DNA of 64,000 bases from contig NZ_LT632322.1 in assembly GCF_900119705.1 (NCBI RefSeq), forward strand, positions 186,001 to 250,000. The letters run 5' to 3'. Every line of letters begins with the position of its first letter. The first letter of the stretch is position 1. Shown piece after piece: positions 24,831-38,064 of the stretch. The notes beneath the pieces were generated by a model. That model ran no database searches. It was not told where the DNA came from and saw only the letters and a list, made by a program, of their open reading frames with translations. Origin of the DNA: Murdochiella vaginalis (GTDB taxonomy: Bacteria > Bacillota > Clostridia > Tissierellales > Peptoniphilaceae). The position numbers and the translations under genes are program-made.

Positions 24831-25328
24831 ATGAAAAAAGTAGCGTTGATCATGGGCAGCGACAGCGATTTGCCCATCATGGAAAAAGCGGTAGACATCC
24901 TGAAAGAATTGGAAATTCCCTTTGCAGTACACGTCTATTCTGCGCACCGCACGCCACAAGAAGCACGTGATTTTGCGGTACATGCCAAAGAAAACGGCTT
25001 CGGGGTGCTCATCTGTGCGGCAGGCATGGCAGCGCATCTGGCCGGTGCGTTTGCGGCAAATACCACGCTTCCGGTCATCGGCATTCCCTGCACATCGCAG
25101 GCCCTGGACGGTATGGACGCCCTGCTTTCAACGGTTATGATGCCCTCCGGCATTCCGGTCGCGACAGTTGCGATCAACGGGTCGAAAAACGCTGCGCTCC
25201 TGGCCGCACAAATTCTTGCGCTCAGTGATGAAGCGCTCGACAAGCGTCTGGAAGAAAAGCGCGCAAAAGATGCCGAAAATGTCCGGGAAAAAGATCGCAA
25301 AATTTCTGCCCGCTTCGCTGAAAAATAA
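24831..25328 (+). CDS. purE: PurE, AIR carboxylase of class II type
   Basis: The 165-residue protein has the PurE core: [16 protein letters not shown], then [22 protein letters not shown] and LDALLSTV-like [28 protein letters not shown]. The MAAHLAG and [15 protein letters not shown] segments resemble class II PurE, which carboxylates AIR directly with CO2, rather than class I (usually GAAHLPG and GVPVATV-AGATNAG). No purK lies in the operon, which fits. AAAGGAG precedes the ATG; a GTG upstream is rejected. It is the first gene of the purine operon. Confidence 0.93.
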
Positions 25329-25332
25329 GCAT

Positions 25333-25375
25333 TTGCCGCTTGGCCGCCTTCGGGCAGACCTGCGGCAATTTTGTT
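25333..25375 (+). terminator. Candidate attenuator hairpin between purE and purC
   Basis: TTGCCGC and GCGGCAA arms, with an inner GCC-TTCG-GGC hairpin, are followed by TTTTGTTT. It could partially terminate transcription after purE. No purine riboswitch aptamer was recognised here. Confidence 0.5.
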
Positions 25376-25455
25376 TCCCCGTCTGTTGAGCACCGTGATA
25401 TGGTGCAAGGTGTAATGTACAAGGTAATGGTACAGTATAAATAAGGAGGATACCC

Positions 25456-26172
25456 ATGGAAAAATTGGAACAGCTCTACGAAGGAAAAGCGAAAAAAGTG
25501 TACGCTACGGACGAAAGTGACAAGGTCATCGTGTCGTATAAGGACGATGCCACGGCCGGAGACGGCGCAAAACGCGGCACCATCGTTGGAAAGGGTGCCA
25601 TCAACAACCGTATGACCAACTTCCTCATGCAACTGTTGGAAAAAGAAGGTGTGCCCACACACTTCGTTAAAGAGCTCGATGATCGCAATACCGTGGTGAA
25701 AAAAGTCGAGATCGTCCCACTGGAAGTCATTATTCGCAACATTTCCGCCGGCTCCTTTGCGAAACGCTATGGTGTCGAGGAAGGCATTGTTTTCGACAAG
25801 CCGACGCTGGAATTTTCCCTGAAGGATGATGACCTGCATGATCCGCTGATTAACCGCTATCATGTGCTGGCCTTAAAGCTCGCCACCGAAGAGGAACTGA
25901 ACCGCATCGCCGAGATGGCATTTAAGGTCAATGACACGCTCAAAGCCTATTTCAAGAAGCTCAACGTCAAGTTGGTGGACTTTAAATTGGAATTTGGTCG
26001 TACCGCCGACGGTTCCATCGTTTTAGCCGATGAAATCTCGCCGGATACCTGCCGTTTCTGGGATGCCGAGACCAATGAAAAGCTCGATAAGGATCGCTTC
26101 CGCCGTGATATGGGCGGTGTCGAAGATGCCTATAAAGAAATGATGCATCGCGTATTCGGCGAACAGGCCTAA
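25456..26172 (+). CDS. purC: SAICAR synthase
   Basis: The 238-residue protein is the standard length and contains [13 protein letters not shown] at the start, [17 protein letters not shown] near residue 80 and [12 protein letters not shown] near residue 195. It joins CAIR and aspartate with ATP. AAGGAGG precedes the ATG. It follows purE in the operon after a 127-base spacer that contains a candidate attenuator. Confidence 0.97.
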
Positions 26173-26240
26173 CATCCCCTGCGGACGGCCTCATGGCCGT
26201 CTGCTTGCAACGAACCCACGAACGAAGTGAAGGAGTAACT

Positions 26241-27665
26241 ATGGGCGGTTTTTTTGGCGTTGCCTCCCGGCGAGACGCCCTGGTCGATGTGTTTTATGGC
26301 ACCGACTACCATTCGCATCTCGGTACACACCGTGCCGGCATGGCCGGCTATGACAAGGAGATCGGGCTGCAACGGGAAATTCATGACATTGAAAATTCTC
26401 CGTTTCGTACCCGCTTTGAATCCATCTTCGATGAGATGAAGGCGACGTCCGCGATCGGCTGCATCAGTGATTACGATCCGCAACCGCTTTTGATCCGATC
26501 GAAATTCGGCACCTTTGCCCTCTGTTTCATCGGCATAATCAATAATAAAGAGGAACTGATTAAAGAATACCTCTCGAAACCCGGCGCACATTTTGACGCC
26601 ATGACCAATGGCCAGGTCAACAGCGTGGAACTCATCGCTGCCATGATGGCGGAAGAGGATTCCTATATCGACGGCATCCGCGCTGTACAACGACGTATCG
26701 AAGGAACGGCGTCGCTGCTGCTTTTAAAGGACGACGGCACCATCTTAGCCGCTCGCGATTACTACGGACGCCTTCCTGTCTTTGTAGGCGAAAACGCCGA
26801 TGGCCACTGCGTCTCGTTTGAGCCCTTCCCTTATCACAAGTTGGGCTATCAAACGGTAAAAGAGCTGGGTCCGGGCGAAGCGGTGGAAATTACGCCCACC
26901 GGCTTCAAAACCGTTCTGGAGGCGCAAGAAGAGATGAAAATCTGTGCCTTTCTCTGGACGTATTACGGCTATGCCAATTCCTCTTATGAAGGCGAAGGCG
27001 TCGAAAAATCCCGTTACCGCAACGGCGAAATTCTGGCGGAAAACGACCGGAAAAACAACGGGATTCCCGATATTGACTTTGTCGGCGGCGTGCCGGATTC
27101 CGGCTTGGCATACGGACAGGGCTATGCCTACGAAAGCGGCGTTCCCTTCGGTCGTCCGATGCTGAAATACACGCCGACCTGGTCGCGTTCGTTTACACCC
27201 TCGCGCCAATCGGAGCGAAACCGCGTCGCCCACATGAAACAGTTGCCCATTACGGACTATATCGACGACAAGAAGCTGCTCATTGTGGATGATTCCATCG
27301 TGCGCGGCACGCAACTGCGCGAAACGGTCGATTTTCTCTACAGGAACGGCGCAAAATGCGTTCACATGCGCTCCGCATCGCCTCCGATTCTCTTCAGCTG
27401 CAAATACTTGAACTTTTCGCGCACCAACAACGAGATGGAACTGCTCACTCGTCGCATCATCCTGCAGCTGGAAGGCGAGGAAGGCTTTAACCATCTTGAC
27501 GAATATCGCGACGGCACCACCGAACGCGGGCGCGCCATGCGTGATAAGATTGCCGAACAATTTCATTTTTCCTCGTTGGAATACCAGACGCTGGAAGGAA
27601 CCATCGAAGCCATTGGGCTTCCGCGCTGCCAACTGTGCACCTATTGCTGGAATGGAGAAGAATAA
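26241..27665 (+). CDS. purF: Amidophosphoribosyltransferase-like protein lacking the N-terminal Cys
   Basis: The 474-residue protein has the PurF layout: an Ntn-type glutaminase domain (about 1-235) and a PRPP-binding domain with LLIVDDSIVRGTQLRE near residue 350. Canonical PurF exposes Cys after Met1 (CGI/VFG); here the start is MGGFFGVASRRDA, so the nucleophile is absent. A CxxCxxC motif near the end (RCQLCTYC) may hold metal. Similar MGGFFG proteins are annotated as PurF in other anaerobes. It could use free ammonia or be a non-glutaminase paralogue. AAGGAGTAACT precedes the ATG; the longer frame is rejected. The stop overlaps the purM start by one base (TAATG). Confidence 0.88.
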   Translation: MGGFFGVASRRDALVDVFYGTDYHSHLGTHRAGMAGYDKEIGLQREIHDIENSPFRTRFESIFDEMKATSAIGCISDYDPQPLLIRSKFGTFALCFIGIINNKEELIKEYLSKPGAHFDAMTNGQVNSVELIAAMMAEEDSYIDGIRAVQRRIEGTASLLLLKDDGTILAARDYYGRLPVFVGENADGHCVSFEPFPYHKLGYQTVKELGPGEAVEITPTGFKTVLEAQEEMKICAFLWTYYGYANSSYEGEGVEKSRYRNGEILAENDRKNNGIPDIDFVGGVPDSGLAYGQGYAYESGVPFGRPMLKYTPTWSRSFTPSRQSERNRVAHMKQLPITDYIDDKKLLIVDDSIVRGTQLRETVDFLYRNGAKCVHMRSASPPILFSCKYLNFSRTNNEMELLTRRIILQLEGEEGFNHLDEYRDGTTERGRAMRDKIAEQFHFSSLEYQTLEGTIEAIGLPRCQLCTYCWNGEE

Positions 27666-28717
27666 TGGATGAGATGAATCGACAGTCCTCTTCCGAAGCC
27701 TATAAAGAAGCGGGCGTAGATATTACCGCCGGCTATCGCGCGGTAGAGTTAATGAAGGAGCATATTGCACGCACAACAACGCCGGGCGTGCTCTCCGGCA
27801 TCGGCGGATTCGGCGGACTCTTTGCTCCGGACATCGCCGGCATGGAAAAGCCGATTCTCGTCAGCGGCACCGACGGCGTGGGCACCAAGCTCAAGTATGC
27901 TTTTTTGCTGGATAAACACGACACCATCGGCATCGACTGCGTCGCCATGTGTGTCAACGATATTTTATGTAGCGGCGCTGTACCGCTGTTTTTCCTCGAC
28001 TATATCGCCTGTGGAAAGAATGACCCGGAACGCATCGCCCAAATCGTAAAAGGCGTCGCGGAAGGCTGCGTCCAATCCGGATGCGCCTTGATTGGCGGCG
28101 AAACGGCGGAAATGCCCGGCTTCTACCCGGAAGACGAGTATGATTTGGCCGGCTTTGCCGTGGGTCTTGTCGATGAAAAGGACATGATTGACAAAAACAA
28201 CGTCAAGGAAGGAGATCAGCTTATTGCCCTACCTTCTTCCGGTGTACATTCCAACGGCTTTTCGCTCGTGCGTAAAATCCTAGACGGCAATAAAAACACC
28301 GACTGGACGACCCGTTATTCCACGCTCGACGGCAAAACGCTCGGCGAAGCACTTTTAGAGCCGACACGCATCTATGTAAAGCCCGTGCTCTCGCTCATGA
28401 AGCAGGTAAAGGTGAAAAGCATGGCCCACATCACCGGCGGCGGTTTCTATGAAAACATTCCGCGTGCCCTTCCGGACGGTCTCGGCGCCAACATCGACCG
28501 CGCCGCGCTTCGTCTTCCCTTCCTCTTCCGCTTCATCCAAGAAGCCGGAAAAATCACGACACACGATATGTACAACACCTTTAATATGGGCGTCGGTTTC
28601 GTGCTCGTCGTATCGAAAGAAGATCTGCCTACCGCACTCGAAATCCTGCAGGAAGAAGGCGAAGAAGCCTATCGTCTCGGCGAAGTGGTATCCTCACCGG
28701 AGAGGGTGATTCTATGA
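27665..28717 (+). CDS. purM: Phosphoribosylformylglycinamidine cyclo-ligase (AIR synthetase)
   Basis: The 350-residue protein carries GTDGVGTKLK near residue 70, the dimer/ATP site GGETAEMPGFY near residue 145, and ITGGGFYENIPRALP near residue 260. These are the AIRS signatures. It closes the imidazole ring of AIR from FGAM. GGAGAAGAATA precedes the start. It is coupled to both neighbours: one-base overlap with purF and four-base ATGA overlap with the next gene. Confidence 0.97.
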   Translation: MDEMNRQSSSEAYKEAGVDITAGYRAVELMKEHIARTTTPGVLSGIGGFGGLFAPDIAGMEKPILVSGTDGVGTKLKYAFLLDKHDTIGIDCVAMCVNDILCSGAVPLFFLDYIACGKNDPERIAQIVKGVAEGCVQSGCALIGGETAEMPGFYPEDEYDLAGFAVGLVDEKDMIDKNNVKEGDQLIALPSSGVHSNGFSLVRKILDGNKNTDWTTRYSTLDGKTLGEALLEPTRIYVKPVLSLMKQVKVKSMAHITGGGFYENIPRALPDGLGANIDRAALRLPFLFRFIQEAGKITTHDMYNTFNMGVGFVLVVSKEDLPTALEILQEEGEEAYRLGEVVSSPERVIL

Positions 28718-30147
28718 CCGGCGCACCTTCCTGCGTTCCCGTTGCGGTCTTTGTATCGGGTGGCGGCACCAATTTACAGGCGCTTCTCGATGCCCAGGCC
28801 GCCGGAAAGCTTGCCCCGGCAAAGATTTGTCTCGTACTTTCCGATCAGCCGGATGTCTATGCGTTGGAGCGGGCAAAAAATTCGAACATTCCTACCGCGG
28901 TCTTTTCTGCTAAAGATCTTCCCGGCGATGCCTGGGAGGAAGCGGTTTTAAAAGCCTTACAGGACGCGGATATTGCACTGATTGCATTAGCCGGCTTTTT
29001 GCGTGTGCTCTCGCCGCGCCTGATTGAGGCTTATCCCGATCGCATCGTGAACATTCACCCAGCACTACTGCCTTCGTTTGGTGGGCGCGGGTATTACGGC
29101 TTGCACGTACACGAAGCCGTGCTTGCAAATCGCCAACAGGTTACCGGCGCAACGGTACATTTTGTGACAGCCGAAGCGGATGCCGGCCCGATTCTGGCAC
29201 AACACGCCGTGGAAATTCACGAAGATGACACACCGGAAACGCTGCAACGCCGCGTTATGGAACAGGCCGAATGGCGTCTGCTGCCGGCAGTGGTTCATGC
29301 GCTTGCCGTGCGCTTAATACAGAACTTGCCGGAAGAAGCCGTTTGTGCGCCTCTTTCCGAAGCGGAAAAAGCGCCCTTCTTTGTCGCTGGTACGGCAGAG
29401 GCACAAGTCCCTGCGCAAGCCGGCTCCCAAGTGGGAAACGAGGCACCATCGCTGGCCTCTCTGGTCGACGGCAATCCCTATCCGGGACGCGGCATTGCGC
29501 TCGCGCATGGCCCGCACGGCGAACGCCTGGTAGCCTATTTCATCATGGGAAGAAGCACGAACAGCCAAAATCGCATCTTTGTGCAGCGGGACGGCGATCT
29601 TTACACGCAAGCCCATGATCCGGCCCTTGTGGAAGATCCCCGTCTCATTATCTATCGCGCACTGTCTCACACGGTATATCGCGAACAGCCCGTGACTGTG
29701 GTCACCAACGGAGACCAGACGGATACCATACTGGATGGCTTGGCCCAAGGGATGTCCTTCGACGAGGCTTTACAATGCCGTCGGTTCGAGCCGGATGCGC
29801 CCCATTATACGCCGCGCATATCCGGTTTGCTTGATACCGACGGTATGCAGCTTTCCATCTGGAAGGCCTTGAACGCAAGCGGACAACAGGCCGGCTACTA
29901 CGCCTTCCGGTACGAAAAAGAGCCCGGATTCGGGCGCTTTCTCTCCACCTATGTGACCGACGCTAATCCGCTGCCGAGCTTTCAGGGAGAACCGTTGCGC
30001 TTCTCCTGGGATGGCGACGCCGAGGCGTTCGCGGACCATCTCTGGAACGCATTGGATGCCCAGAACCGCATTGCACTCTATGTGGAAGTGCAAACCGCAA
30101 ACGGTATCCAAACCATTCAAAAGAGTCGCTTTTCCGAAACGTTGTGA
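28714..30147 (+). CDS. PurN-PurO fusion: GAR formyltransferase with IMP cyclohydrolase domain
   Basis: Residues 1-200 are PurN: VFVSGGGTNLQALL, NIHPALLPSFGG, and ADAGPI, covering the Asn-His-Asp catalytic set. A linker of about 50 Ala/Glu-rich residues follows. Residues 254-477 begin NPYPGRGIALA and contain YFIMGRSTNSQNRIF, VVTNGDQTDTI and FEPDAPHYTPRISGL, all typical of the PurO-like (PF07826) IMP cyclohydrolase family known from archaea and some bacteria. The fusion would do an early formylation and the last ring closure to IMP. Both fit a pathway in which no full PurH is present in the operon. It overlaps purM by four bases. Confidence 0.9.
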   Translation: MTGAPSCVPVAVFVSGGGTNLQALLDAQAAGKLAPAKICLVLSDQPDVYALERAKNSNIPTAVFSAKDLPGDAWEEAVLKALQDADIALIALAGFLRVLSPRLIEAYPDRIVNIHPALLPSFGGRGYYGLHVHEAVLANRQQVTGATVHFVTAEADAGPILAQHAVEIHEDDTPETLQRRVMEQAEWRLLPAVVHALAVRLIQNLPEEAVCAPLSEAEKAPFFVAGTAEAQVPAQAGSQVGNEAPSLASLVDGNPYPGRGIALAHGPHGERLVAYFIMGRSTNSQNRIFVQRDGDLYTQAHDPALVEDPRLIIYRALSHTVYREQPVTVVTNGDQTDTILDGLAQGMSFDEALQCRRFEPDAPHYTPRISGLLDTDGMQLSIWKALNASGQQAGYYAFRYEKEPGFGRFLSTYVTDANPLPSFQGEPLRFSWDGDAEAFADHLWNALDAQNRIALYVEVQTANGIQTIQKSRFSETL

Positions 30148-30233
30148 GCTGCAGGCGCTTCTTCCTTTCCCGGAAGCACTTGGATTTGCGGCGTTTCTTC
30201 ATTGTCACCGTTTTTTGACAGAAAGGATATTTC

Positions 30234-31664
30234 ATGGACGCTTACGATCGTTATCTTTCTCCCCTATCCACGCGCTATGCCAGCGACGAAATGCAGTTTC
30301 TCTTTTCTGCGCAGCATAAATTTCATCTGTGGCGCAAGCTCTGGATTGCGCTTGCCCGTGCGGAAAAAGAACTGGGTTTGGATATCAGCGATGCACAAAT
30401 CGCGGAAATGGAAAAAGTGGAAGACGACATCAACTTTTCCGTTGCCGAAGCACGCGAAAAGATCGTTCGCCATGACGTCATGAGTCACGTCTATGCCTTC
30501 AGCCAACAGGCGCCAAGCGCCGCACCCATTATCCACTTGGGTGCCACGAGCTGCTATGTGACCGACAACACCGACCTCATCATCCTGCGTGAAGCATCGA
30601 TGGTGCTGCTTCATAAAGCGGCGCAGGTGTTGGTGAATCTGCGCGCTTTCGCCGATCGCTATAAAGACGTTCCGGCGCTGGCCTATACGCACCTGCAGCC
30701 TGCACAGCTGACAACGCTGGGAAAACGCGCGACGCTCTGGATGAACGAGCTCGCCATGGATATGGAGCAGCTACAATTCCAGATCGACCAACTGGCCTTC
30801 CGCGGGGCAAAGGGCACGACCGGTTCCCAAGCCAGCTTCATGGAGCTGTTTGACGGAGATAGCGAAAAGGTGCAGGCACTCGATGAAAAAATTGCTGCCT
30901 CCTTTGATTTTCCTCGCCTGATTCCGGTCTGCGGACAGACCTATTCTCGCAAAATCGATTCCTTCTTCCTCTCCGCTTTATCCGGCATCGCACAGAGCGC
31001 TTCCAAATTTGCAAACGATCTGCGCCTGTTACAGTCTTTTGAAGAGATGGAAGAACCCTTCCAAAAAGAACAGATCGGTTCCTCTGCCATGCCCTATAAG
31101 CGCAACCCCATGCGCGCGGAACGCATGACCGCTCTGGCACGCTATGTCATGACGGATGCCTTAAATCCTGCCTTTACGGCGTCCACCCAGTGGATGGAAC
31201 GCACGCTCGATGATTCCGCCAACAAGCGCATTGCCGTCGCTGAAGCCTTCCTCGCCACGGATGCAATTTTGAACATCTATATGAATGTTACGGAAAATAT
31301 GACCGTCTACGAAGCGGTGGTGCACCGTCGCGTCATGGAAAAGCTGCCCTTCATGGCCACGGAAAATATTATGATGGAATCGGTAAAACGCGGCGGCAAT
31401 CGTCAAGAGCTCCATGAACTGATCCGCGTGCATTCCCATGCGGCGGCGCGTGCGGTAAAAGAGGGAAAACCCAACGATCTCATCCAACGACTGGCCCAAG
31501 AAGAGAAAATTCCTCTTACCGAGGAAGAAATTCGCTCGCATCTGGAGCCTTCCGCCTATATTGGCCGTTGCCGCGAGCAGGTGGAACATTTTCTGGCAGA
31601 CGTCGCCGATCCCTTGATTGCAAGGTATCACGATAGCGATCGTAAAATTACTCTGTCGGTCTGA
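30234..31664 (+). CDS. purB: Adenylosuccinate lyase
   Basis: The 476-residue protein contains HLGATSCYVTDNTDL near residue 100, TGSQASFMELF near residue 200, and the family signature GSSAMPYKRNPMRAE near residue 280. It cleaves SAICAR to AICAR and adenylosuccinate to AMP. GAAAGGAT precedes the ATG. It lies between purN-purO and the AICAR transformylase, in the order of the pathway. Confidence 0.97.
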   Translation: MDAYDRYLSPLSTRYASDEMQFLFSAQHKFHLWRKLWIALARAEKELGLDISDAQIAEMEKVEDDINFSVAEAREKIVRHDVMSHVYAFSQQAPSAAPIIHLGATSCYVTDNTDLIILREASMVLLHKAAQVLVNLRAFADRYKDVPALAYTHLQPAQLTTLGKRATLWMNELAMDMEQLQFQIDQLAFRGAKGTTGSQASFMELFDGDSEKVQALDEKIAASFDFPRLIPVCGQTYSRKIDSFFLSALSGIAQSASKFANDLRLLQSFEEMEEPFQKEQIGSSAMPYKRNPMRAERMTALARYVMTDALNPAFTASTQWMERTLDDSANKRIAVAEAFLATDAILNIYMNVTENMTVYEAVVHRRVMEKLPFMATENIMMESVKRGGNRQELHELIRVHSHAAARAVKEGKPNDLIQRLAQEEKIPLTEEEIRSHLEPSAYIGRCREQVEHFLADVADPLIARYHDSDRKITLSV

Positions 31665-31747
31665 GGCAAACGGCGGCGGGCCTCGAAGGAACCGCTTGCC
31701 GTTTGGTGTTCGTGCGTTTTTCTTATTCGAAATGTTTGGAGGTCATC

Positions 31748-32932
31748 ATGCAGGAATGTCCATTAAAGTATGGCTGTAATCCCAATCAGATTCCGGCACG
31801 TCTGGATCGAGCCGACGGCGGCGAACTGCCTTTTACGGTTCTCAACGGCAAGCCCGGCTATATCAATTTTCTGGATGCCTTAAATGCTTGGCAGCTGGTC
31901 CGCGAACTGGACGAAGCAACCGGAATGGCGGCCGCTGCCTCCTTTAAGCACGTTTCCCCCACATCGGCCGCGCTCGGTCTTCCCCTTCCGGATGCCCTGA
32001 AGCGCGCCTGTTTTGTCGAGGATGTCGATGGTCTGGATGAATCTCCGCTGGCTTCGGCCTATGCGCGGGCACGCGGCACCGACCGCCTCAGCTCCTTTGG
32101 CGACTGGGCCGCTCTTTCCCGTCCCGTCGATGTTACCACCGCGCGTCTGCTCCGCCGCGAAGTGTCGGACGGCGTCATTGCGCCGGGCTATAGCGAAGAA
32201 GCGCTCGCGCTGTTACGCGAAAAGAAAAACGGCAACTATAACGTTGTTTCCATAGACCCCGACTATGTTCCACAACCCCTGGAATCCAAGGAAGTTTTCG
32301 GCATTCGCTTCACGCAAAAGCGCAACGATTGCCGCTTTTCCCTGGATGCCCTGGGCGATATTGTCACCGAGAACAAGGATCTGCCGGCGACGGCAAAACG
32401 GGATCTTCTCGTTGCCCTCATCACGCTAAAGTATACGCAGTCCAATTCCGTCTGCTTTGCGGTAGACGGGCAGGCCATCGGCGTCGGAGCGGGACAACAA
32501 TCCCGCATTCACTGTACACGCCTGGCCGGCGATAAAGCCGATACCTGGCGACTTCGTCAAAGCGAACGCGTACTTTCGCTGCCGTTTCGCAGCGATCTGA
32601 CACGCGCTGCGCGCGATAACGTCATCGACCAGTATCTGCACGATTATGAAGAGGATGTCACCGCCGAGGATCGCTGGCCGTTGTATTTCACAGCGCGCCC
32701 CGAACCCTTCACCAGAGAAGAGCGCGCCGCGTATCTTCGTCGCGAGGCGCATCTCGCCCTCGCCAGCGATGCGTTTTTCCCCTTTGCCGACAATATTTTG
32801 CGTGCCGCACAGAGCGGCGTGCAATACATTGCGCAGCCCGGCGGCTCCACTCGCGATGACGCCGTTCGACAGCAAGCAGACGCCTGCGGCATGACCATGG
32901 TCTTTACGCATCAGCGTCTGTTCCATCACTAA
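31748..32932 (+). CDS. Stand-alone AICAR transformylase (PurH C-domain)
   Basis: The 394-residue protein corresponds only to the formyltransferase part of PurH. Motifs include YGCNPNQ near the start, SFKHVSPTSAALGLP near residue 75 (the Lys-His pair of the active site), QSNSVCFAVDGQAIGVGAGQQSRIHCT near residue 240, and DAFFPFADNI near residue 345. The MGS-like IMP cyclohydrolase domain of normal PurH is missing. That activity is provided by the PurO domain two genes upstream. TTTGGAGG precedes the ATG. Confidence 0.92.
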   Translation: MQECPLKYGCNPNQIPARLDRADGGELPFTVLNGKPGYINFLDALNAWQLVRELDEATGMAAAASFKHVSPTSAALGLPLPDALKRACFVEDVDGLDESPLASAYARARGTDRLSSFGDWAALSRPVDVTTARLLRREVSDGVIAPGYSEEALALLREKKNGNYNVVSIDPDYVPQPLESKEVFGIRFTQKRNDCRFSLDALGDIVTENKDLPATAKRDLLVALITLKYTQSNSVCFAVDGQAIGVGAGQQSRIHCTRLAGDKADTWRLRQSERVLSLPFRSDLTRAARDNVIDQYLHDYEEDVTAEDRWPLYFTARPEPFTREERAAYLRREAHLALASDAFFPFADNILRAAQSGVQYIAQPGGSTRDDAVRQQADACGMTMVFTHQRLFHH

Positions 32933-33022
32933 AAAAACGCGCTCCCTAATAAGGGGCGTTGCGATACGACGTGAGGCAAACATATTTACGCGCAATGCGC
33001 GAAGCACAGAAAGAGGTGTCCG

Positions 33023-34309
33023 ATGAATGTATTGATCTTGGGCGGCGGTGGCCGCGAGCACGCCATCATCAAGGCGTTGCGTAAAAACCCGACCATAAAC
33101 CGCATCTATTGTACGCCGGGAAACGACGGCATGGACGGCGGCACGCCCTTTCCCATTGCGGCTGATGCCTTTTCGACGTTGATTCGATTTGCAAAAACCG
33201 AGCACGTGGACTATATCGTCGTCAGTCCCGACAACCCGCTTGTGGACGGTGCGGTCGATTGCTTTACAGAAGCCGGCTTTGCTTGCTTCGGGCCGACCAA
33301 AGCCGCTGCACAGTTGGAAGGCTCCAAAATTTTTGCAAAAGCCTTTATGAAACGCCATGCCATTCCCACCGCACGCTATGAAGCGTTCGAGAATGTGCAG
33401 GAAGCCCGTGACTATGTACATGCCGAGGCGAATGCCGGACACCTGCCGCTGGTCATCAAGGCCGACGGTCTGGCGCTGGGAAAAGGCGTCGTCATTGCCG
33501 AAACCGAAGAAGAAGCGCAGGAAACCATTACCCGTTTCATGGAACAGGATGCCTTCGGCGAAAGCGGACATCGCCTCATTGTGGAAGAGTTCATGGAAGG
33601 TCCGGAAGTAACGGTGCTCACCCTGACAGATGGCAAGACCATTGTTCCGCTTCTTTCCTCCATGGATCATAAACGCGCTTACGACGGGGACAAGGGCCCC
33701 AATACTGGCGGCATGGGCGTCATTGCGCCCAATCCCTTCTATACCGAGGATATCGCCGAAATTTGCCGAAAAACCATCTTTGAGCCGACCATAAAAGGGA
33801 TGCGCGAGGAAGGCACGCCCTTCAAAGGGTGCCTCTACTTTGGCCTCATGCTCACGAAGGAGGGCCCGAAAGTAGTGGAATACAACTGTCGTTTTGGCGA
33901 TCCCGAAGCGCAAGCGATTCTTCCTCTTCTGGAAAGTGACCTCTTCACGCTGTTTCAGGCGGTCACCAATGAAACGCTGGAGGAGGAAATGGTACAGTTT
34001 AAGGATGGCGCTTCCTGCTGCGTCATTTTGGCCTCCAAAGGTTATCCCAAACAATACGAAAAAAATGTGGAAATCACGCTTCCCCGTCACCTGCGCGAAA
34101 AAATTTACTGCGCCGGTGTGCGCAAAAAGGGCAGCACGTATTATACCAACGGCGGACGCGTGGTCGGCGTAGTGGAAACGGCTCCGACGCTTCGCGAAGC
34201 TATCGAGAAAGCATATGAAACGGCGGAAGCTGTCACCTTCCGTACCAAATATTTCCGCACCGATATCGGACAAAAAGCGCTGGAGGCGCTGGAAAGGAGC
34301 CAAGCATGA
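33023..34309 (+). CDS. purD: Phosphoribosylamine-glycine ligase (GAR synthetase)
   Basis: The 428-residue ATP-grasp protein opens NVLILGGGGREHAI. It contains LVIKADGLALGKGVV near residue 147, KGPNTGGMGVIAP near residue 230 and VVEYNCRFGDPEAQ near residue 285. These mark PurD. It couples phosphoribosylamine to glycine. GAAAGAGG precedes the ATG. It overlaps purL by four bases. Confidence 0.97.
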   Translation: MNVLILGGGGREHAIIKALRKNPTINRIYCTPGNDGMDGGTPFPIAADAFSTLIRFAKTEHVDYIVVSPDNPLVDGAVDCFTEAGFACFGPTKAAAQLEGSKIFAKAFMKRHAIPTARYEAFENVQEARDYVHAEANAGHLPLVIKADGLALGKGVVIAETEEEAQETITRFMEQDAFGESGHRLIVEEFMEGPEVTVLTLTDGKTIVPLLSSMDHKRAYDGDKGPNTGGMGVIAPNPFYTEDIAEICRKTIFEPTIKGMREEGTPFKGCLYFGLMLTKEGPKVVEYNCRFGDPEAQAILPLLESDLFTLFQAVTNETLEEEMVQFKDGASCCVILASKGYPKQYEKNVEITLPRHLREKIYCAGVRKKGSTYYTNGGRVVGVVETAPTLREAIEKAYETAEAVTFRTKYFRTDIGQKALEALERSQA

Positions 34310-37300
34310 TCCGTCGTGTTTATGTCGAAAAAAAGCCGGCCCATGCGCAGGAAGCGCGCGCGCTTCTGCATGACCTACAGGACTTTGTGCAGGTGCAAGA
34401 CCTCAAGAACGTACGCATCTTGCATCGTTACGATGTAGAAGGCGTTGACGATGCCGTTTTTGCCCAGGCAGTGGATACCATTTTCTCCGATCCCACGGTC
34501 GATCAGGTTCTGGAAAAATTGCCGGCATCCGACGCGCATCTTACGGTCGAGCCCCTTCCCGGCCAATTTGATCAGCGTGCCGATTCCGCCGAGCTTTGTC
34601 TGCGCTTGCTTTCCCGTGTGGAAGAACCGCGCGTAAAAACCGCGCGCGTCTATCTCTTTGAAGGGTCGCTTTCCGAACAAGACCAAAAACGCTTGCGGGC
34701 GCACCTGATTAACCCCGTCGAAGCACGCGAGGCATCCGATGCGCTTCCGGAAACCTTGCAATGGGCCAAAACCGAGCCGAAAGCCGTGCCGACACTCGAC
34801 GGCTTCATCCAAGCGGATGCCAAGGCGCTGGCAGCCTTTCGGGAAGAAAAAGGTCTCGCCATGGACGACGATGATCTCCTCTTCTGTCAACGCTATTTCC
34901 AAAAGGAACAGCGCGATCCGACCGAAACCGAAATTCGCATGATCGACACGTACTGGTCGGATCACTGCCGTCACACCACCTTCCGCACCATCATCGACGA
35001 AGTGACGTTTGAAGATCGCCTGTTGCAGGAAACCTACGAGACCTATCTTCGTTTGCGCAAAGAAACCGGCGACAGTAAGCCCATTTGTCTGATGGATATG
35101 GCTCTCATCGCTGCACGCTATCTGCGCAAGACCGGAAAGCTCACCGGCGAGGATGTTTCAGAAGAAATTAACGCCTGCACGGTACACATGGACGTGACCA
35201 TCGACGGCAAGAAAGAGCCGTGGCTACTGCTATTCAAAAATGAGACACATAACCATCCCACCGAAATCGAACCATTCGGTGGTGCTTCCACCTGTATCGG
35301 CGGCGCCATTCGTGATCCCCTTTCGGGACGCGCCTATGTCTATGCCGCCATGCGCGTGACCGGCGCGGCGGATCCTCGCACCCCGCTTGCCGAAACTCTG
35401 GAAGGCAAACTCCCGCAGCGCAAAATTGTCACCGAGGCCGCCCAAGGCTATGCCTCCTATGGCAACCAAATCGGCCTGGCCACCGGCATGGTGCATGAAA
35501 TCTATCATCCGGGCTATGCGGCGAAGCGTATGGAAATCGGGGCGGTCGTTGCTGCGACGCCGAAGGAAAATGTCGTGCGAGAGACCCCGACCCCCGGCGA
35601 TGTGGTCATTCTTCTCGGCGGACGTACCGGCCGCGACGGCATCGGCGGCGCCACCGGCTCCTCCAAGGCGCACACCCTGCATTCCGTGGAAACGGCAGGG
35701 GCCGAAGTGCAAAAAGGCAATGCGCCGGAAGAGCGCAAATTACAACGCTTCTTCCGCAATCCCGAAGCGGCGCGCATGATAAAACGCTGCAACGACTTCG
35801 GTGCGGGCGGGGTGTCCGTTGCCATCGGAGAACTGGCGGAAGGCATTCATATCTATCTGGATCGGGTGCCGAAAAAATATGCGGGACTCGACGGTACGGA
35901 ATTGGCCATCAGTGAATCGCAGGAGCGCATGGCCGTTGTCATAGCCCCGGAAAATTGCGAACGCTTCATGGCCCTTGCCGCATCGGAAAACCTTGAAGCG
36001 ACCGTCGTCGCGGAAATTCAGGCCATTCCCCGTCTACAGATGGAATGGAACGGGCAAACCATTCTGGATCTTTCCCGTGAATTTCTGGACTCCAACGGGG
36101 CGGAAAAGCACATTTCCATTCCGACAGGAAGCGCGAATTGGCAGCCGCATCCCACGCATAAAGAAGAAAACCTCGAAAAGCTTTTTACGGATTTCGCGCG
36201 CGACTTGCGTAACGCAAATCAGCACGGGCTAGTGGATCGCTTCGATTCCACCATCGGTGCGGGAACCGTCCTCATGCCGTATGGCGGAAAAACGCATTCC
36301 ACGCCGATTCAGGCCATGGTGCATCAGATTGCACTCGAAAAGGGCGAAACGGACACCGCATCCTACATGTCCTGGGCCTACTCTCCGGAAGTCGCAGAAA
36401 AAAGCCCCTATCATGGCGCCTATTTGGCGGTCGTGGAGTCGCTGGCGAAACTGCTCGCAACCGGTGCGGATCGTAAACAGACGTATCTGACCTTCCAGGA
36501 ATACTTCAAACGCCCAGGAGACATCCCCGAGCGTTGGCAGGAACCTTTGGAAGCCCTCCTCGGCGCGCTGCAGGCACAGATCGACTTTGAAGTCGGCTCC
36601 ATCGGCGGCAAGGATTCCATGTCGGGCACCTTTGAATCCATGGATGTTCCGCCGACACTCGTATCCTTCGCCATCACCACAAACAGCGCCGAACGCGTAC
36701 TTTCCCCCGAATGGAAAGCGCCGGGAGAGCGGCTCACACTCGTATATCCGACCCAACAAGCCTCAGGATTACCGGACCCTGCTTCCTTGAACACCCTCTT
36801 CACCGCCATCGCAGATCTCACGCAGCGGGAAGACGTGCACAGCGCGTATGCGCTCGGCTACGGCGGACTGATGGAAGCGTTGGTGCTCTCCGCCGCCGGA
36901 AACGAGATTGGCGCAACTCTAACAAAAGATGTCACGCCGGACATGCTGACAACGCCCGGTTTCGGTTCCTTCCTGCTTGCATCGGAAAAGCCGATTGGAG
37001 ACATTCCGGGTGTACAGGTACAGGAAATCGGCAAAACAGCCGAAGCTTACGCCATCGCCTTCCCGAATACCACGATTGCTCTGCAAAACATTGCCGCTCT
37101 TCGCAAAGAAACACTTGAAGACATCTATCCCACGACGCCGGCCACGCCGCCTGCGCCACTCTTTGCCGAAGCGAAGGAGGCCGTACAGCTGGCGAAAAAA
37201 CATGCCGAGGCGCATCCCTTCCCGCTCTATCATGGCGCAGCTTTCTCGCTGCAAAATACAGCACCAAGCGTCGTGATCCCCGTCTTTCCGGGCACAAACT

Positions 37301-38064
37301 GTGAAGTGGACTCGGCGCGCTACGTTGAACGCGCGGGACTTGTTCCTCGCATTCAGCTCGTGCGCAACCAGACAACGGAAGATATTTCCCGCAGCGTAGA
37401 GGAAATGGCGGCGGCCCTTCGCGAGGCGCAAGTCCTCTTCCTGCCGGGCGGCTTTTCCGGCGGAGATGAGCCGGATGGCAGTGCCAAGCTCATCAATGCG
37501 TTCTTCCGCAATGCAGAGCTTGCCGAGGCGCTCACCGACTTGTTGGATCGTCGCGAAGGACTGATTCTGGGTATTTGCAACGGTTTCCAAGCGCTGGTAA
37601 AGCTGGGGTTGCTTCCCTTTGGACGCCTGATGCCGCCGAGCCCCGAATTGACGACGCTCACGTATAACACCATCCGGCGTCACCAATCGCAGATGGTTAC
37701 GACACGCATCGTCACTAATAACTCGCCGTGGCTTGCCCATGTTACGCCGGGACAATGCTTCCGCGTGCCCGTTTCCCACGGCGAAGGCCGTTTGGAAATG
37801 GACGAAGCGCGCTTAAAGAAGCTGTTCGAAAAGGGACAGGTCGCCGGACAATATGTTGACGAGAATGGCGAGCCGAGCATGGATGTGGCCTACAATCCGA
37901 ACGGATCCTTAGGCGCTGTCGAAGCGCTGCTCTCGCCCAATGGGCGCATTCTCGGCAAAATGGGCCACAGCGAACGTACCGGTCGCTTCCTTTATCGCAA
38001 TCTGCCGGAAGTGGCGGATCTTAAGCTGTTTGAAGCGGCAAAAGACTACTTTAATAAAGAATAA
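34306..38064 (+). CDS. purL: FGAM synthase, single large chain (PurSLQ type)
   Basis: At 1252 residues this is the fused form. The N-terminal 150 or so residues resemble the PurS/linker part. The middle (from DTYWSDHCRHTTF near residue 213) holds the two PurL domains, with HNHPTEIEPFGGA near residue 315. The last 260 are the glutaminase, with FPGTNCEVDSARY, catalytic ILGICNGFQ and VSHGEGR. It converts FGAR and glutamine to FGAM. GAAAGGAGCC precedes the ATG. This is the last purine gene; the stop is eight bases from a convergent gene. Confidence 0.97.
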   Translation: MIRRVYVEKKPAHAQEARALLHDLQDFVQVQDLKNVRILHRYDVEGVDDAVFAQAVDTIFSDPTVDQVLEKLPASDAHLTVEPLPGQFDQRADSAELCLRLLSRVEEPRVKTARVYLFEGSLSEQDQKRLRAHLINPVEAREASDALPETLQWAKTEPKAVPTLDGFIQADAKALAAFREEKGLAMDDDDLLFCQRYFQKEQRDPTETEIRMIDTYWSDHCRHTTFRTIIDEVTFEDRLLQETYETYLRLRKETGDSKPICLMDMALIAARYLRKTGKLTGEDVSEEINACTVHMDVTIDGKKEPWLLLFKNETHNHPTEIEPFGGASTCIGGAIRDPLSGRAYVYAAMRVTGAADPRTPLAETLEGKLPQRKIVTEAAQGYASYGNQIGLATGMVHEIYHPGYAAKRMEIGAVVAATPKENVVRETPTPGDVVILLGGRTGRDGIGGATGSSKAHTLHSVETAGAEVQKGNAPEERKLQRFFRNPEAARMIKRCNDFGAGGVSVAIGELAEGIHIYLDRVPKKYAGLDGTELAISESQERMAVVIAPENCERFMALAASENLEATVVAEIQAIPRLQMEWNGQTILDLSREFLDSNGAEKHISIPTGSANWQPHPTHKEENLEKLFTDFARDLRNANQHGLVDRFDSTIGAGTVLMPYGGKTHSTPIQAMVHQIALEKGETDTASYMSWAYSPEVAEKSPYHGAYLAVVESLAKLLATGADRKQTYLTFQEYFKRPGDIPERWQEPLEALLGALQAQIDFEVGSIGGKDSMSGTFESMDVPPTLVSFAITTNSAERVLSPEWKAPGERLTLVYPTQQASGLPDPASLNTLFTAIADLTQREDVHSAYALGYGGLMEALVLSAAGNEIGATLTKDVTPDMLTTPGFGSFLLASEKPIGDIPGVQVQEIGKTAEAYAIAFPNTTIALQNIAALRKETLEDIYPTTPATPPAPLFAEAKEAVQLAKKHAEAHPFPLYHGAAFSLQNTAPSVVIPVFPGTNCEVDSARYVERAGLVPRIQLVRNQTTEDISRSVEEMAAALREAQVLFLPGGFSGGDEPDGSAKLINAFFRNAELAEALTDLLDRREGLILGICNGFQALVKLGLLPFGRLMPPSPELTTLTYNTIRRHQSQMVTTRIVTNNSPWLAHVTPGQCFRVPVSHGEGRLEMDEARLKKLFEKGQVAGQYVDENGEPSMDVAYNPNGSLGAVEALLSPNGRILGKMGHSERTGRFLYRNLPEVADLKLFEAAKDYFNKE

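Follow-up and report, generated by a model that had tools for sequence, protein, structure and literature searches.

A PurN-PurO fusion and a stand-alone AICAR formyltransferase as a likely substitute for PurH in a purine operon of Murdochiella vaginalis

How can a bacterium complete inosine monophosphate (IMP) when its purine operon holds no PurH? This question is raised by a 64,000-nucleotide stretch of Murdochiella vaginalis (contig NZ_LT632322.1, positions 186,001 to 250,000 of the forward strand; hereafter the window, with positions counted from its first letter). Here, one gene joins a PurN domain, for glycinamide ribonucleotide (GAR) formyltransferase, to a PurO-type IMP cyclohydrolase domain, and another encodes a stand-alone 5-aminoimidazole-4-carboxamide ribonucleotide (AICAR) formyltransferase. 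Judging from the sequence, the fusion is likely a bifunctional PurN-PurO enzyme whose PurO half, with the separate AICAR formyltransferase, stands in for PurH. The fusion is a real, rare architecture made from known enzymes; our literature search found no report of it, and an earlier mention is possible.

Two enzyme domains in one open reading frame

The fusion gene (28714-30147) starts with ATG and runs uninterrupted through 477 codons. As an earlier note on this DNA had assigned from the letters, one open reading frame (ORF) holds both PF00551 (residues 10-193, 156.2 bits against a cut-off of 26.1) and PF07826 (residues 256-461, 145.7 bits against a gathering cut-off of 28.1), and this domain content bears out its claim that the third and last steps of IMP synthesis are joined. 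The Pfam search of the 477-residue protein listed no PF01808, unlike the haloarchaeal PurN-PurH1 chain. The PurN half also passes the NCBIfam PurN equivalog TIGR00639 (183.4 bits against 150.1). Its catalytic-type residues N113, H115 and D156, paired by eye with those of E. coli via the motifs NIHP and D.GPI, are invariant across 7 aligned fusions. We take the catalytic Asn of E. coli PurN to be Asn106; His108 and Asp144 are named as catalytic in the available part of PMC3261824.

An AlphaFold2 model of the fusion protein, built from a 53-row alignment, has a mean predicted local distance difference test score (pLDDT) of 91.8 and a predicted template modelling score (pTM) of 0.57, with residues 226-239 below a pLDDT of 50. 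In structure comparisons of the model, with Foldseek also used for the search, the PurN half matches GAR transformylase 2ywr (Z 26.4) and the PurO half matches the Methanothermobacter thermautotrophicus PurO MTH1020 (2ntk; Z 21.2, root-mean-square deviation 2.7, 196 aligned residues, 22% identity), with the Ntn-hydrolase-like fold of MTH1020 found in the prediction. As modelled, the fusion is two known folds on a flexible tether, without evidence of a fixed interface.

We call the window's genus Levyella, or the Levyella group, a presumed assignment covering 5 genomes and including L037 (Levyella massiliensis, NZ_HG529491.1) and L038 (Peptoniphilaceae bacterium SUG2087). The Levyella linker has about 50 residues, some 35-40 more than the linkers of three further complete fusions in the same alignment. 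Between the window and genome G488, the linker shows a nonsynonymous rate (dN) of 0.279 and a synonymous rate (dS) of 0.597 (NG86), a higher dN/dS than in the domains. Counting ATG starts only, the translation has none from codon 182 to 278, so a free PurO made from an internal ATG is unlikely.

We infer both activities of the fusion, GAR formylation and cyclisation of 5-formamidoimidazole-4-carboxamide ribonucleotide (FAICAR), from sequence. The PurN half would convert GAR and 10-formyl-tetrahydrofolate (10-formyl-THF) to formylglycinamide ribonucleotide (step 3), and the PurO half would cyclise FAICAR to IMP (step 10). FAICAR would be supplied by the AICAR formyltransferase encoded two genes downstream, past purB. 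Each half probably works independently at its own active site, with the tether as the sole join, and no direct channelling is expected between the two because other steps lie between step 3 and step 10.

Exchange with PurH in the genome and the family

The genome is a single contig of 1.67 Mb, 99.84% complete. It gives no match to PF02142, the PurH N-domain, in a search that was positive in 13 of 14 controls, and one match each to PF01808 and PF07826. With no PF02142 and a single PF07826, the PurO half is the only candidate cyclohydrolase of known type in the genome. A hidden PurH or a free PurH N-domain is ruled out by the missing PF02142 and the single PF01808, and a complete PurH elsewhere, which the earlier note had named as refuting its reading, was not found in this search. 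PF00551 occurs twice, in the fusion and in a 320-aa frame. A formate-THF ligase is encoded (886.6 bits), so the cell can supply both formylation steps with 10-formyl-THF.

The AICAR formyltransferase matches PF01808 (183.3 bits) and, over residues 1-394 and profile positions 1-390 of 390, NF005492 (602.8 bits, cut-off 415), confirming that it stands alone. The label that the earlier note gave the arrangement, a split and rewired PurH, fits less well, as the protein lacks the look of a trimmed bacterial PurH. In phmmer searches of the PDB, it reaches E values of about 1e-128 with ATIC chains of 592-613 residues (7mgq, 1g8m, 1p4r), which are presumably eukaryotic, against 9e-23 to 8e-19 with PurH chains of 464-538 residues. 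Because it is far closer to the former, replacement of the whole module would fit better than a split of PurH within the lineage. The closeness to long ATIC chains also hints at a shared history of the domain type.

The family Peptoniphilaceae offers a wider view of the exchange. PF07826 is present in 10 of its 130 genomes (G000, G464, G476-G479, G488-G491) and PF01808 in 123, leaving 7 without the latter. In 113 genomes, the PF01808 match begins at profile position 1-2, in frames mostly of 499-542 aa (G417 with 466 and G456 with 447 are shorter, as are G448 and G474, which are broken); their fit to full PurH is judged from match start and frame length, PF02142 having been searched in the window's genome only. 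In the other 10, it starts only at position 53-74, in frames of 397-430 aa, and in 4 of them it extends back across a TAG that precedes the gene. These 10 are the same genomes that carry PF07826. This one-to-one exchange is the strongest evidence for the PurO half taking over the function of the PurH N-domain. So exact a swap within one family lends strong genomic support to clostridial PF07826 proteins as IMP cyclohydrolases; the literature examined holds no report of an assay of any bacterial PF07826 protein.

Distribution, origin and active site of the fusion

PurO with a stand-alone formyltransferase is widespread in Clostridia, and the PurN-PurO fusion is rare. The earlier description of the arrangement as unusual in bacteria is right for the fusion and too strong for PurO and the split: PF07826 is found in 24 of 398 genomes of a phylum sample and in at least 596 stretches in a profile search of genome contigs, and a model for the separate formyltransferase (NF005492) exists. 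PurO in bacteria was already known, with 22 of 1266 genomes quoted in the available part of PMC6797443 and a Butyrivibrio PurO listed in a proteome table of PMC5217386, and the portion available of PMC4177761 describes PurO as exclusively archaeal.

Besides the window's genome, none of the 21 readable PurO genomes of the phylum sample has the fusion by blastp, with L019 and L020 not recovered. In the family, the fusion is present in 5/5 genomes of Levyella, and purN and purO are separate and adjacent in 5/5 PurO genomes of other genera, as they are at many clostridial loci. Among 80 loci kept from the profile search, 6 are fused (L037, L038, L045, L053, L069 and L077), the last four each known from a single metagenome-assembled genome (MAG) and L053 truncated by a contig edge. 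A Subdoligranulum variabile record (L187) is also fused, with both Pfam domains above cut-off. A class scan covered 391 genomes; at least 20 of its rows extend over both domains, and among the matches listed only that of the window's genome is free of stops.

Several other long frames were rejected as fusions. G315/L022 has a frame of 446 aa, but its upstream part has no PurN match and its PurO has its own Met; L064, L073 and L090 likewise have no PurN match upstream and look by eye like open-frame accidents; the frames of 436-443 aa in G612, G639, G793, G759 and G742 are actually purN, one stop codon and purO. Three further records stand apart. The L069 MAG is named Solobacterium (Erysipelotrichaceae), yet on the PurO tree its sequence falls with Evtepia and Oscillospiraceae (98/83), and the genome name or contig assignment may be wrong or the gene transferred. 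In L076 (4853-5953), a PurM piece, a PurN tail and PurO share one frame, and the contig seems to reflect a deletion or misassembly, the genome itself carrying a PurN-PurO fusion. On rhizobial plasmids, L185 (1498-2139) and L186 (1498-2142) are annotated as IMP cyclohydrolase and are about 42-43% identical to a stretch of MTH1020, and the 3.4-kb stretches examined carry no annotated purine gene; L185 scores 153.8 bits with PF07826 and is flanked by RES-domain and DUF2384 genes.

A careful PurO tree of 108 rows, 9 of them fused, requires 4 changes of the fusion label; starred branches force every one of these, and bootstraps that had not fully settled give 4-4 changes. This tree leaves out the duplicate window locus, L033, L035 and L036 as redundant, and also L019 and L020, for which blastp recovered no PurO. 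A quick tree (143 rows, 10 fused) gives 5 changes, 3 of them forced. Several independent origins would be the simplest reading, the alternative being one gain and several fissions. In the 108-row tree, the Levyella clade has a long stem (1.92 changes per column) and groups with other Peptoniphilaceae PurO (99/94), a grouping that long branches may affect; in the quick tree, its nearest separate row by path is L052.

Where purN and purO adjoin, the distance from the purN end to the start of the PurO domain has a median of 49 nt (61 pairs). Most likely, the fusion arose where the purN stop codon was lost between adjoining genes, and the linker would have lengthened later, in Levyella. A single stop-codon change would fuse those pairs that share a frame; the L069 fusion retains a Met where purO would begin, and the short-linker fusions fit this route.

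As to the active site, we take the catalytic residues of MTH1020 to be Arg30, Tyr59 and Glu104. In the M. jannaschii PurO, Arg31Lys reportedly lost about three quarters of the activity and Glu102Gln is said to have abolished it. By residue type, Arg, Glu and Tyr are postulated as catalytic in the available part of PMC6797443. The equivalents of Tyr59 and Glu104 are kept in 107 of 107 bacterial PurO rows (L076 dropped), and the Arg30-aligned position has Arg in 104 and Gln in 3. Two residues after Gln285 of the window, Arg287 is also invariant (107/107) and could be the true equivalent of the archaeal Arg30.

Strong purifying selection acts on the PurO half: in the comparison of the window with G488, dN/dS is 0.069 for PurO and 0.132 for PurN (YN00), and NG86 gives dN/dS values of 0.058/0.873 and 0.059/0.673, respectively. 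Because this selection is strong, we think that the PurO half of the window fusion is active as a cyclohydrolase.

A number of results weigh against a bifunctional enzyme that arose in this way. The selection estimate comes from one pair, dS being saturated or undefined against two more distant Levyella sequences. The PurO half misses the archaeal PurO equivalogs TIGR01922 (27.4 bits against 158.35) and NF003167 (40.7 against 150) and is therefore not classed as archaeal PurO; the other two clostridial PF07826 proteins tried, a separate PurO (L028) and the L187 fusion, also fall below both models. The low pTM leaves the relative placement of the PurN and PurO halves undefined in the model. Of 143 distinct PurO sequences, those of the window, G488 and L. 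massiliensis have Gln at the Arg30-aligned position, and the remaining 140 have Arg; a non-Arg reading of L009 in this count is a pattern error, as the 107-row alignment gives Arg. The pairing of Gln285 with Arg30 is common to three alignments (HMMER, MAFFT and hhalign), all of them sequence alignments only. Finally, of the 61 adjacent pairs of separate genes (from L005-L116, excluding those more than 400 nt apart or overlapping), 13 share a frame and are parted by one stop codon, and 48 are out of frame. This is below the third expected by chance, without enrichment, and therefore gives no sign that neighbours are held in frame. A single-stop count of 28/88 was not used, as it includes loci chosen because they span both domains.

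The Gln and the long stem of the clade would also suit another reading: the cyclohydrolase activity of the Levyella PurO half is lost or reduced, the half persists as a structural or regulatory appendage, and an unrecognised enzyme cyclises FAICAR. We regard this as very unlikely: the PurO dN/dS lies below that of the PurN half, the Tyr, Glu and Arg287 are invariant, no other known type of cyclohydrolase is found in the nearly complete genome, and L038, the fourth sequence of the Levyella group, keeps Arg. It is conceivable, and on balance rather unlikely, that the Levyella fusion cyclises with Gln in place of the supposed catalytic Arg, the PurO mechanism having changed after fusion with PurN in a group with recurrent fusions. 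The Arg-to-Gln change makes the proposed catalytic mechanism of PurO directly testable. That the fusion is an assembly or sequencing artefact, a missed stop or frameshift joining two genes, might be suspected from the adjoining purN and purO of relatives and their in-frame pairs with a single stop. Such an origin has almost no likelihood, given the long Levyella linker and the fusions in records of other lineages, and for Levyella it is ruled out by one open frame holding both domains in 5/5 genomes; an artefact may yet lie behind the single-MAG fusions (L045, L053, L069 and L077).

The fusion might also be functionally advantageous, for example as a scaffold of a purine enzyme assembly, and not the neutral result of adjacency. 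The repeated changes on both PurO trees favour this, but PurO uses no folate, its step and that of PurN are not consecutive, and the fusion is found in just 6/80 clostridial PurO loci. According to the available part of PMC3261824, haloarchaea fuse PurN with AICAR formyltransferase, which speaks for an advantage; human PurH, as the available part of PMC6797443 has it, does without channelling between its own two consecutive steps, which speaks against one. An advantage thus seems possible, though doubtful. For the bifunctional PurN-PurO enzyme that we favour, the fusion suggests that bacteria have a short, repeatable path to tethering enzymes of distant purine steps, from adjacent operon genes through loss of a stop codon.

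The purine operon and known systems

The genes lie on one strand (24831-38064) in the order purE-purC-purF-purM-purNO-purB-AICAR formyltransferase-purD-purL, and each of the ten steps to IMP is covered by one gene or domain (Table 1). The interval 28714-32932, to which the earlier note had confined the fusion and the AICAR formyltransferase, contains both and also purB (30234-31664), which lies outside the fusion. Rfam at gathering thresholds finds nothing in the window.

Table 1. Positions of the fusion gene, its parts and the other purine genes in the window (GATase, glutamine amidotransferase)
Feature	Position	Strand	Evidence and remarks
purE	24831..25328	+	PF00731, TIGR01162 above cut-off
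purC	25456..26172	+	Pfam, NCBIfam
purF, divergent, without N-terminal Cys	26193..27665	+	Pfam, NCBIfam, sequence motifs
purM	27635..28717	+	Pfam, NCBIfam; 4-base overlap with fusion start
purN-purO fusion gene	28714..30147	+	One ORF, 477 aa; predicted GAR formyltransferase and PurO-type IMP cyclohydrolase; first 4 bases overlap end of purM
PurN domain, residues 10-193	28741..29292	+	PF00551, TIGR00639; N113, H115, D156 kept
Linker, about residues 203-251	29320..29466	+	AlphaFold2 model, translation
PurO (PF07826) domain, residues 256-461	29479..30096	+	Pfam, structure match to 2ntk over residues 252-472, alignments
purB, between fusion and AICAR formyltransferase genes	30234..31664	+	Pfam, NCBIfam
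Stand-alone AICAR formyltransferase, 394 aa	31748..32932	+	PF01808, NF005492
purD	33023..34309	+	Pfam, NCBIfam
purL, large form with GATase	34306..38064	+	Pfam, NCBIfam

No purK scores above cut-off in the genome (best 23.2 bits against 318.4), so carboxylation of aminoimidazole ribonucleotide would have to depend on PurE alone. PurE passes the N5-carboxyaminoimidazole ribonucleotide mutase model TIGR01162 (199.6 bits against 149.6) despite this.

The PurF of the window has MGGFFG where CG.FG is expected and IGI where NGN is expected. The glutaminase Cys and the Asn-Gly motif, to which we assign glutaminase roles from general knowledge, are thus gone, and the protein, at 149.8-156.7 bits, stays below the PurF cut-off of 350. 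The only other TIGR01134 match in the genome is a GlmS-like protein with its Cys kept. A non-random set of 51 PurF sequences of at least 400 aa, from the window and 50 loci, has Gly without the NG motif in 41, Ser without it in 4 and both Cys and NG in 6. This suggests that an ammonia-dependent PurF may be common in PurO-type operons; a literature search by title and abstract start found nothing on PurF without the glutaminase cysteine in such operons.

Among known systems, PurH/ATIC covers the same last two steps, and the AICAR formyltransferase of the window is homologous to the C-terminal half of PurH. The PurH cyclohydrolase differs from PurO in fold and family, according to the available part of PMC6797443, and in the window the two last-step activities lie on separate proteins. 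Archaeal PurO enzymes include MTH1020 (2ntk/1kuu) and TK0430; with MTH1020, the window shares PF07826, the fold and the Tyr and Glu; it differs in scoring below the equivalog cut-offs, in the Gln at the Arg30-aligned position and in being fused to PurN. Closer at hand, the clostridial purM-purN-purO-AICAR formyltransferase-purD clusters have the same proteins in the same order with purN and purO as separate genes, except that the window's genus and, within the family, L029-L032 carry an additional purB in the cluster.

The nearest functional parallel is haloarchaeal. In the available part of PMC3261824, a PurN-PurH1 fusion and a separate PurO provide the same three activities as the window, without a PurH N-domain, and both systems fuse PurN to an enzyme that acts in one of the two final steps. 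As far as that text goes, the two are mirror images: the haloarchaeal PurN carries the AICAR formyltransferase and leaves PurO alone, whereas the PurN of the window carries PurO and leaves the formyltransferase alone.

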